Assembly: GCF_016185115.1 (NCBI RefSeq)
Contig: NZ_JACPOF010000017.1
Location: 248,001 to 312,000, forward strand
Source of the DNA: Polaromonas sp.
Lineage (GTDB): Bacteria > Pseudomonadota > Gammaproteobacteria > Burkholderiales > Burkholderiaceae_C
DNA: 64,000 bases
Direction of reading: 5' to 3'
A model generated the notes under the pieces. That model was not told the DNA's origin. It worked only from the letters and a program-made list of their open reading frames with translations, and did no database searches. The number at the start of each line of letters is the position of its first letter. The first letter of the stretch is position 1. A program made the translations under genes and the position numbers. Shown here piece after piece: positions 25,552 to 34,814 of the stretch.

Positions 25552-25816
25552 AGGACGTGTTAACAATTAAACGAATGAGCGATAGTGCCCCAGGCGGCCT
25601 GATGCAAGGCGCTGTGAGGGCCGTGTGGCCTGCCACACAATCGAGCAGCAACGCCGCAGCAGGTCGTCTGGGGCACTTTCCCTGCGGGTTGGCCCCAGAT
25701 GGGGCGTCTGCTTTGTCGCACGGCTTGCCAATAGCGGTGCTATTGGCAGCGCCGCGCTTCGCGCATCCATCCCCATCTGGCGCCAACGCTCATCCGTTTA
25801 ATTGTTAACACGTCCT
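25552..25816. repeat. 265-bp palindromic element A (30-base terminal inverted repeats)
   Basis: The ends AGGACGTGTTAACAATTAAA and its complement form 30-base arms with one mismatch (25552-25581, 25787-25816). Inside are nested stems: AGTGCCCCAG (25584)/CTGGGGCACT (25668); GTGTGG/CCACAC (25623-25638); GCCCCA/TGGGGC (25692-25705); TTGGCCCCAGATGGG paired with its near complement near 25770; and TGCCAATAGC/GCTATTGGCA (25726-25748). It has no convincing coding sequence and lies between divergent polA and a small exported protein gene. Architecture matches element B at 33597. Confidence 0.9.
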
Positions 25817-32559: not shown

Positions 32560-33537
32560 ATGGAAATATTCGACTACGACAACATCCTGCTGCTGCCGCG
32601 CAAATGCCGCGTGGAGAGCCGCTCGGAGTGCGACGCGGGTGTAGAACTTGGCGGACGCACCTTCCGCATCCCGGTGGTGCCGGCCAACATGAAGACGGTG
32701 GTCAACGAAAGCATCTGCGTGTGGATGGCCCAAAACGGTTACTTCTACGTGATGCACCGCTTTGACCTGGACAACCTGAAATTTGTACGCGACATGAAGG
32801 CCCAGGGCGTTTACGCCTCGATTTCACTGGGCGTCAAAAAAGCCGACTACGACACGGTGGACCAGCTTGTGGCCGAGGGCCTGGTGCCCGAATACATCAC
32901 CATTGACATCGCGCATGGCCACGCCGACACCGTGCAGAAAATGATTGCCTACCTCAAGCAGAAACTGCCAACCTCGTTTGTGATCGCCGGCAATGTCGGC
33001 ACGCCAGAAGCCGTGATCGACCTTGAAAACTGGGGCGCCGATGCCACCAAGGTGGGCATTGTCCCGGGCAAGGTCTGCATCACCAAAATGAAGACCGGTT
33101 TCGGCACAGGCGGCTGGCAGCTCTCAGCGCTCAAGTGGTGTGCACGCGTGGCGACCAAACCCATCATTGCCGACGGCGGCATACGTGAGCATGGCGACAT
33201 CGCCAAGTCAGTGCGCTTTGGCGCGACCATGGTCATGATCGGCTCCATGCTTGCGGGGCTTGAAGAAAGCCCCGGCAAGACGGTGGAAGTCGACGGCGCG
33301 CTGTTCAAGGAGTACTACGGCAGCGCCTCGGACTTCAACAAGGGCGAGTACAAACACGTCGAGGGCAAGCGCATTCTTGAGCCGGTCAAGGGCACGCTGG
33401 CCGATACGCTGCGCGAGATGGAGGAAGACATCCAGAGTTCCATCAGCTACGCCGGCGGTACAAAACTCATGGACATCCGCAAGGTCAACTACGTTACCCT
33501 GGGTGGCGATAACGCAGGCGAGCACCTGCTGATGTAA
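32560..33537 (+). CDS. guaC: GMP reductase
   Basis: A 325-residue IMPDH/GMPR-fold enzyme converting GMP to IMP with NADPH in purine salvage. No CBS domains. Catalytic Cys173 lies in [36 protein letters not shown] forms the phosphate site. It is a GMP reductase rather than an IMP dehydrogenase because of length, the start [16 protein letters not shown] and the absence of CBS. The ATG has GGAG 13 bases upstream. Two hairpins without T-run follow (33549-33587). Confidence 0.92.
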
Positions 33538-33587: not shown

Positions 33588-33596
33588 GGCTACTTA

Positions 33597-33863
33597 GAAC
33601 GTGTTTGTGATCTCCCAGGGGTCGCGCAGCGGTGTTTGCGGGATGGGGTGCAAGGCGCGGTGCGCCGCCAATAGCACAGCTATTGGTCAGCGCCGCAACG
33701 CCGCAGACCGCCCGCAAACGCCACGGCCCTCCGGGTTGGAGCGAAATCGGGCGATTGAACGCCTCGGCTGCTGGCATGGGCATCAGCCCATGCGGCGCAG
33801 CCGAGGCATCCACTCATACCGATTGCGCTCCAACGCGGCCCCTGCGAGATCGCAAACACGTTC
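33597..33863. repeat. 267-bp palindromic element B (30-base terminal inverted repeats)
   Basis: The ends GAACGTGTTTGTGATCTCCC and the complement form 30-base arms with three mismatches (33597-33626, 33834-33863). Inner stems: GGTGTTTGCGGG/CCCGCAAACGCC; CCAATAGC-aca-GCTATTGG (33668-33686); TTGGAGCGAAATCGG with its complement near 33820; GCCTCGGCTGC (33761)/GCAGCCGAGGC (33797) enclosing CATGGGC/GCCCATG. Compared with element A, the layout and short motifs (TGCAAGGCGC, CAACGCCGCAG, GGGTTGG) are shared, while stem sequences differ. It has no convincing coding sequence and fills most of the gap between guaC and the hydrolase gene. Confidence 0.9.
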
Positions 33864-33914
33864 TCACGCCCGGCAAAGCCGGATCGCGGCCCCTGCTGGC
33901 TAAACTGGGTTTGC

Positions 33915-34814
33915 TCATGCCGCGCCTTTCCTGCCGGGCAAGCCCAACAGTTGGAGCGCAAGTTGATGCGCACGCTGATCAGGCTCGGCCAGTGTCTGCA
34001 GCACGCTGAAGTGATTCAGACCTGGCAATTCCTCGCAGACCGGCACCACCTTTTTGCCCCAGGCCTGCTGGATCACTACATTCTGGCGCAGGAACTCTTC
34101 GCTCTCGTCACCGCCGACTACCGCATACAAGGTACCGGTCCTAGGCGCAGGCAGCAAGGCCGGGCTGGCGCGGGACACATCTTCCGGTGTCAGGCGCAGC
34201 GAGTCTTTCATGGCCGGTGTGTGCGGCAGCGGCGCGAGGTCGTGGAGGCCGGAAATCGACAAGGCATTTTTGACAAGGTTTGACGGCAGATCGCGCGCAT
34301 AAGCAGGCCAGTTGCAGGCCAGCATCATGGCCGAGAGATGCCCGCCGGCGGAGTGCCCCGCCACGGTGATGCGTGAAGGGTCGCCCCCATGCTGTGCAAT
34401 ATTGCGGAAGGTCCAGGCCAGTGCCTTGACCATCTGCATGGTGATGTCGGGAATAGTCACCGCCGGGCAGAGGTCGTAGTTGGGCACCACCACGCAAACG
34501 CCGTTCGCCGTAAAAGACGGGGCGACAAAAGAGTGATCTGATTTGTCGAGTGACCGCCACCAGCCGCCGTGGATGAAGACCAGCACCGGTGCGCCCTTGC
34601 CGTTCTTTTTCTGGGCCGCGGCAGGAAACACATCCAGATTTTCATTGGCGCTTTTGCCATAAGCAGCGTCAAGTACGCAACCGGGTACCTGGCGTGCCCG
34701 TGCGGACTGGTCAATCCAGTGGGCCAGGTGAGCAGCAAAATCCGGCACGCGGGCGCGGTTGTTGTACTGGACGTCCAGCCACTGTGGATCGGGATGTGCC
34801 GGTGAACCTGTCAT
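33915..34814 (-). CDS. Alpha/beta hydrolase, kynurenine formamidase-like
   Basis: A 299-residue serine hydrolase. The oxyanion motif HGGWWRSLDKSDH and the nucleophile elbow AGHSAGGHLSAMML are those of arylformamidases and related esterases; the His is near ELPGLNHFSVL. Related proteins hydrolyse N-formylkynurenine, but no tryptophan-degradation genes are close, so substrate is uncertain. The start at 34814 follows a GAGG; the upstream frame overlaps the divergent promoter region. Confidence 0.85.
   Translation of the reverse strand: MTGSPAHPDPQWLDVQYNNRARVPDFAAHLAHWIDQSARARQVPGCVLDAAYGKSANENLDVFPAAAQKKNGKGAPVLVFIHGGWWRSLDKSDHSFVAPSFTANGVCVVVPNYDLCPAVTIPDITMQMVKALAWTFRNIAQHGGDPSRITVAGHSAGGHLSAMMLACNWPAYARDLPSNLVKNALSISGLHDLAPLPHTPAMKDSLRLTPEDVSRASPALLPAPRTGTLYAVVGGDESEEFLRQNVVIQQAWGKKVVPVCEELPGLNHFSVLQTLAEPDQRAHQLALQLLGLPGRKGAA

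Follow-up and report, generated by a model that had tools for sequence, protein, structure and literature searches.

A gene-less two-hairpin element with IS5-type ends beside a Polaromonas GMP reductase gene: a probable MITE with a conserved core predicted to fold

Introduction

MITEs are usually regarded as passive, empty shells of a parent transposon. The insertion sequences of the IS5 family share terminal repeats and TNA or YTAR targets with the elements described here, and differ from them in their length (about 0.8-1.2 kb) and in carrying a transposase; the ends of genus members were read from sequence. MITEPsy1 of Pseudomonas syringae is a non-coding element with IS5-like terminal repeats (GGAAGGTCTGAAAAAGCC) and a 4-nt target, CTAG or YTAA, like that of the elements here termed Q-type (PMC3189936). 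It is reported to transpose, with its authors suspecting the transposase of ISPsy2, and is the published precedent for IS5-type mobilisation in trans (PMC3189936).

Other described repeats resemble parts of this organisation. In REPINs and BIMEs, hairpins occur as inverted pairs and the REP unit, of 21-65 nt and with a GT(A/G)G foot, is a single-strand substrate (PMC6006769). The R0, R2, R178 and R200 repeats of Pseudomonas fluorescens are intergenic, with a tail-to-tail bias, and some are MITE-like with stem-loops (PMC2718517); of these, R178 (101 bp) or R200 (320 bp) might be related to the elements reported here.

The locus analysed here compares with these systems as follows. MITEPsy1 is 100 nt long and, as reported, occurs as close copies of restricted host range, and the passages describing it mention neither a conserved core nor a two-hairpin fold (PMC3189936), in contrast to the longer element analysed here. 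Unlike REPINs, the elements have hairpins of about 100 nt, lack the GT(A/G)G foot and lie within transposon ends and target duplications. As a sequence-only reading of this DNA had supposed, neither a named element nor a description of such a family was found in Rfam or in the literature searched.

Results

The window, the whole stretch of 64,000 nucleotides that was analysed, contains a Y-shaped element of 267 bp (element B; 33597..33863, + strand), delimited by its sequence, inverted-repeat analysis, folding, a search of its own genome and a rule for element ends. Its neighbours on either side are a GMP reductase gene (IMPDH domain; 32560..33537, + strand), ending 59 bp upstream, and a gene for an alpha/beta hydrolase (esterase; 33915..34814, - strand) that converges toward it. 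The left terminal inverted repeat, GAACGTGTTTGTGATCTCCCAGGGGTCGCG (33597..33626, + strand), and the right one (33834..33863, - strand) constitute an outer stem, the arms 33596-33626 and 33834-33864 showing 90% pairing across 31 nt. The motif ACGTGTT, from which the ends had been taken to begin, is present and starts at 33599, but the element proper starts with GAACGTG at 33597.

Folding orders the element as outer stem, hairpin 1, a tiny hairpin and hairpin 2. Hairpin 1 (33626..33727, + strand) is core-forward on the + strand, with a conserved core at 33643..33711 (+ strand) that matches the general core model R2 at an E-value of 3.1e-19; the apical hairpin CCAATAGC/GCTATTGG noted beforehand was located at 33668-33686 (+ strand). 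At the junction lies a small CC-TCC-GG hairpin (33728..33734, + strand), followed by hairpin 2 (33735..33834, - strand), with the apical hairpin GCATGGGC/GCCCATGC at 33774..33793; here inverted repeats, folding, mismatch counts and R2 indicate that the fold has been kept and the core sequence lost. The TTGG arm, TTGGAGCGAAATCGG, pairs with its partner at 14 of 15 positions, as first described, inside an inverted repeat of 90% over 20 nt. The RNA folding energy of the element is -189.5 kcal/mol, against -117.4 +/- 5.3 kcal/mol for 200 shuffles (z -13.7), and the opposite strand folds with a z of -13.1. At 267 bp the element falls under 500 bp and was counted as gene-less; a frame of 125 aa (33632-34009) extends beyond it.

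A second element of the same plan and with different terminal repeats (GGACGTGTTAACAATTAAACG), element A, occupies 25552..25816 (- strand), about 100 bp upstream of a DNA polymerase I gene. It carries a core on each strand, at 25597..25664 (+ strand; R2, E 3e-11) and at 25703..25771 (- strand; E 8e-7), and its reverse complement shares the plan of B, which has one core and a core-less hairpin 2. Element A folds likewise, with z values of -12.7 for A and -13.6 for B in a rougher second shuffle. R2, whose alignment (A2) includes neither A nor the B of the window, matches B once and A twice in the window, the next-best match having an E-value of 0.022. Global alignment of A and B yields 136 identities over 259 aligned positions (52.5%), compared with a mean of 43.0% and a maximum of 49.7% in 30 single-base shuffles. 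Together with the R2 matches in both, this identity argues that A and B are related and not two unrelated palindromes. The CCAATAGC hairpin, which lies in the right half of A and the left half of B, had been taken to hint at module shuffling. Its position in A follows from its capping the minus-strand core of that element, and since the left half of A also holds a core, no shuffling of unlike modules is needed; inverted, related halves explain the difference better.

The core, a bulged hairpin of the form CAAGGC ... AACGCCG, is widespread. A DNA pattern for it matched at least 119 stretches; among the 80 matches listed, most bear Burkholderiales names, such as Acidovorax, Comamonas, Polaromonas and Paucibacter, and a few are metagenome bins with other labels. 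At the family level model R1 detected it in 145 of 299 genomes and at the class level in 79 of 370; R2 did so in 100 of 397 at the phylum level, spanning 67 of 232 genera and including other classes. The Polaromonas genome itself has 44 core matches (R2, E up to 1e-4), and a search of it with B returned five clear relatives. Plasmid records from Comamonas, Azotobacter, Halomonas and Pseudoalteromonas also contain the core, and nothing matching B was found in phage records.

Most distant copies are still Y-shaped and about 260-290 bp long but have different terminal repeats (for instance TAGTGTACTGTTGCATGC, CTAGTGTCCTGTCACAC, TACTAACCCGAACACTGG, TATTAACCCGGCAAGGG, GTACTCCGTCCAGG and ATACCAATTTGATTAAG), amounting, as judged by eye, to at least 10 kinds around the core. 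Among 52 distant Y elements, hairpin 1 contains the core in forward orientation in 46, on both strands in 1 and without a match in 5, and hairpin 2 contains it reversed in 46, on both strands in 3 and without a match in 3. In the 31 near T-type Y copies the core is confined to hairpin 1. Copies in the complete genomes inspected are mostly of the two-hairpin form.

Ends and targets were analysed over 171 loci, in which 163 core places were delimited by folding and 121 elements were assigned ends through an inverted-repeat rule. Two types emerged: T-type ends (GARCNTGTT...) with 3-bp TNA targets and Q-type ends (GGRNNNTCTG...) with 4-bp YTAR targets. Each type was found both in two-hairpin elements of about 270 bp (Y) and in single-hairpin elements of about 162 bp (H), the Q-type Y class comprising 7 filed places, of which only L076 and L149 were judged sound, plus L233 and distant ones. 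After filtering, 69 of 70 T-type and 40 of 51 Q-type elements entered the target test. TNA stood at both sides in 46 of the 69 T-type elements, with the same N in 33 of these 46 (shuffle mean 14.0, maximum 26), and 20 of the 40 Q-type elements had identical flanking 4-mers, chiefly CTAG, CTAA and TTAA (shuffle mean 4.6, maximum 11). The flanks of B itself, TTA (33594..33596) and TCA (33864..33866), are both compatible with a TNA target and are not identical, the N of the right copy differing from that of the left; the evidence for target duplication is thus that of the family-level test.

In other genomes of the genus, IS5-type insertion sequences (DDE_Tnp_1, DUF4096) have similar ends beside CTAG or TAA. 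Mismatches to the element ends numbered 2 of 20 at L212 and L225 and 3 at L176, and the ends of other copies differ from genus insertion sequences by 2-4 mismatches in 20, in a scan that also yielded scattered 4-mismatch matches away from insertion-sequence ends. As insertion sequences of the IS5 type in this genus have similar ends, B appears to be a MITE; it and A belong to a family of short elements with inverted terminal repeats and IS5-like target duplications. It combines terminal inverted repeats, a target duplication at the family level, a small gene-less body and ends common to an autonomous element. An interior derived from the parent element, which is true of only some MITEs, was not observed: the core was found inside insertion sequences in none of 60 loci (190 kb), the best R2 match having an E-value of 0.13.

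These ends and targets suggest that the elements are likely moved in trans by IS5-family transposases. Neither DDE_Tnp_1 nor DUF4096 had a match in the source assembly (96% complete), and DDE_Tnp_1 had none in 13 of the 27 genomes searched, some of them copy-rich, which leaves present mobility in these genomes conjectural. Four genomes (G594, G497, G670 and G031) have at least 10 core matches each, yet no DDE_Tnp_1 match. Co-occurrence of elements and DDE_Tnp_1 in the genus (23/28 vs 16/33, p 0.008) was lost once genomes below 3.5 Mb were left out (p 0.44), and was set aside.

Some insertions lie exactly at stop codons. For the GMP reductase locus, 30 loci were fetched (that of the source genome and 29 from relatives), and the core model was run over the full length of 13 of them (the source genome and 12 relatives) in which the stop codon had been placed, wrongly in L464 and L465. 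Among these 13, only the source locus and that of G055 contain the core. The latter (L468, from the stop codon at 1838) is a Y element whose ends differ; it sits precisely on the GMP reductase stop and is flanked by TAA|TAA. B and the element of G055 are two independent insertions beside the same gene in different genomes.

The stems of A and B, which differ and still pair, had been interpreted as compensatory change, to be tested statistically on aligned copies. We aligned 50 Y copies, namely L005 and the 49 that remained of 55 once near-duplicates had been taken out, and evaluated covariation against a null in which substitutions were re-placed on the tree (E < 0.05). Fifteen of 112 pairs covary significantly, with one further column pair besides; of the 15, nine belong to the outer stem, four to hairpin 1 and two to hairpin 2. 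In 59 cores, near and far, double changes were observed in 18 of 20 pairs, 94.6% of cells were paired against 30-44% for slid partners, and 10 of the 20 pairs were significant against the tree-based null, out of 11 significant in all, one being a neighbour outside. Compensatory change above a tree-based null is thus borne out over many copies, although its outer-stem part can be explained as matching of ends. Outer-stem pairing is uninformative on the fold because matching ends are expected wherever one transposase must bind both ends of a transposon.

The best conserved columns of the core are CAAGGCG and GCAACGCCG. Single-sequence folds and the 50-copy consensus place staggered AA and AAC bulges about a GGC/GCC helix. 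These bulges are conserved in 56 and 58 of the 59 cores, respectively; the helix can form fully in 38, and at least two of its three pairs in 56. The 59-core consensus draws the centre differently, with G12 paired to C59, and the pairing predicted for the core centre is hence uncertain.

Mismatches within the hairpins provide a further line of evidence. Arms were aligned with an equal penalty for every mismatch, and a mismatch was scored if it stood alone with a pair on either side. The count covers 123 elements out of 175 places, with near-duplicates and N-containing elements removed and only folds with one or two large hairpins retained. On the core-forward strand, with the core excluded, G.T mismatches outnumber A.C by 159 to 53, a count of non-independent events in which some positions recur; per element, G.T is more frequent in 77 and A.C in 17. 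Distant Y elements have 47 G.T and 13 A.C in hairpin 1, 10 and 52 in hairpin 2 read on the same strand, and 24 and 25 in the outer stem. Single-hairpin elements show the same tendency (24 vs 9 for Q-type and 13 vs 6 for T-type), as does the core-less hairpin 2 of near Y elements, oriented by position (32 vs 8); the minus-strand bias of hairpin 2 was seen for the group of elements to which B belongs. No bias was detected in hairpin 1 of near (Burkholderiales T-type) Y elements (10 G.T vs 12 A.C), in the basal stems of T-type elements (15 vs 16) or in the outer stem (34:39 in this set, 19:20 in a second). The second set, fetched partly as a test of the bias, comprised 73 loci, of which 6 yielded no palindrome and 63 were used (48 Y, 10 H and 5 other, excluding hairpins of ambiguous core direction), and gave 62 G.T against 18 A.C.

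A first alignment-based count with hairpins pooled had returned 163 G.T and 156 A.C, an apparent symmetry due to the near-cancellation of two oppositely oriented hairpins; the asymmetry emerged once hairpins were separated and arms aligned without wobble preference. Being strand-specific, the bias fits a folded single strand, RNA or DNA, since neither a cruciform nor template switching would distinguish the strands, and each hairpin seems to be selected as a folded single strand, the two on opposite strands. That the hairpin fold is under constraint rests on the hairpin covariation and on the excess of G.T over A.C. The original proposal of a fold under selection is upheld to this extent, covariation of the outer stem being no proof of it; the DNA cruciform suggested as one of its forms has become the less likely one.

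Discussion

We assign a probability of roughly 0.72 to the reading that element B is a gene-less, IS5-ended MITE, likely mobilised in trans, in which hairpin 1 on the + strand and hairpin 2 on the - strand are predicted folded single strands. The outer stem would be the transposase site, and its pairing mere end-matching, and the bulged core centre, with its fixed AA and AAC, may be where a host or transposon protein binds the folded strand. Where two cores are present, their inverted arrangement would provide each strand with one working hairpin nearest its 5' end, whatever the orientation of insertion. The folded form would be single-stranded DNA, as at a replication fork; it is weakly favoured over a sense element in mRNA because copies show no tendency to lie in the sense orientation of the adjacent gene. 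We would loosely apportion the identity of the folded strand at about 45% DNA, 35% RNA and 20% something else.

The most credible alternative, a possibility we hold tentatively, is a structured RNA, whereby a read-through transcript from either neighbour would fold the first hairpin for protein binding, as an mRNA 3'-end shield or as a transcription stop. The elements have features typical of RNA, namely conserved bulges, compensations and tolerance of wobble pairs, a two-core Y element presents a core-forward hairpin first from either side, and in 23 of 184 cases the element edge coincides exactly with a gene end. Convergent gaps host 49 of 143 elements, against 39 of 187 controls (p 0.008), according to one gene caller; a second caller, applied to near (Burkholderiales) elements only, placed 21 of 93 in convergent gaps, no clear excess, and as the enrichment was unsupported on this subset we do not claim it. 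In tandem settings, moreover, elements are in the same orientation as the genes in 12 cases and opposite in 29 with the second caller (20 and 25 with the first), Rfam at gathering score returned no matches in the window or in 20 loci with relatives, and the ratio of G.T to A.C, about 3:1, is low for functional RNA. At a permissive threshold, Rfam matched B to a plant-type microRNA family (28.8 bits against a cut-off of 137) and to some sRNAs, and yielded three more matches far below cut-offs in 12 loci with relatives, all of which we took as noise.

A broader and more doubtful extension of the folded single-strand reading is that selfishness resides in the hairpin core itself, which would be a phylum-wide, strand-specific module that swaps IS5-like vehicles, retains its shape and is read as a folded single strand by some protein, perhaps an 'orphan' Y1 for which no hairpin is known.

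Template switching (quasi-palindrome correction), which copies arm onto arm and keeps palindromes matched without selection on the fold, would produce compensatory change in all stems without function, and the unbiased, matched outer stem fits either this process or plain end-matching. For the hairpins it is already disfavoured, and improbable overall: being strand-symmetric, it does not predict a G.T excess of opposite sign in the two hairpins, and it would erase conserved bulges, which are instead among the best conserved columns.

Very improbable, too, is a REPIN-like arrangement in which a Y1 (RAYT) transposase uses the two inverted hairpins as single-stranded DNA sites. REPINs too are built of inverted pairs of bulged, strand-specific hairpins, and Y1 subclasses 2.1 and 2.3 are listed without a known REP (PMC6006769). 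A Y1_Tnp gene is present in 60 of 61 genomes of the genus, but irrespective of the elements, which occur in 28 of the 61, so that co-occurrence is uninformative, and the sole genome without a Y1_Tnp match (G011) has 15 core matches. Target duplications are a mark of DDE enzymes, and a GTAG or GTGG foot 0-2 nt 5' of either hairpin was found in 0 of 50 aligned copies. The source genome has Y1_Tnp (RAYT-like) matches at G000:C14:248867-249187 and G000:C17:1466-1822; in the genus the gene is mostly single copy and its open frame spans about 240-280 codons.

Least probable is a mutational origin of the bias through greater exposure of one strand to cytosine deamination, as C to T changes would indeed yield G.T and T.G on the exposed strand, but that strand must switch within a 270-bp element and spare the outer stem.

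Under the preferred reading of B as an IS5-ended MITE with folded hairpins, a folded, roughly 70-nt core whose bulges are fixed persists in a quarter of the sampled genomes of the phylum while the ends around it change, and the wobble tolerance of each inverted hairpin on its own strand points to a single-strand function in elements supposed to be passive. The core offers a concrete target for pull-down, and its covariance model can be used for genome annotation.

Variants of the architecture were also observed. At L232, hairpin 2 of a Y element is reduced to a short hairpin with TAA|TAA flanks retained; this element, L062 and L127 measure about 200-216 bp, the latter two being alike by length only. 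L386 is a single 159-bp hairpin, a near-perfect palindrome of -141.8 kcal/mol with ends AGGGTCTATTGGACTTTGG. Finally, L296, L298, L300 and L350, from genomes of different families, are Y elements of about 326-328 bp in which one hairpin is enlarged by an extra hairpin-forming insert.
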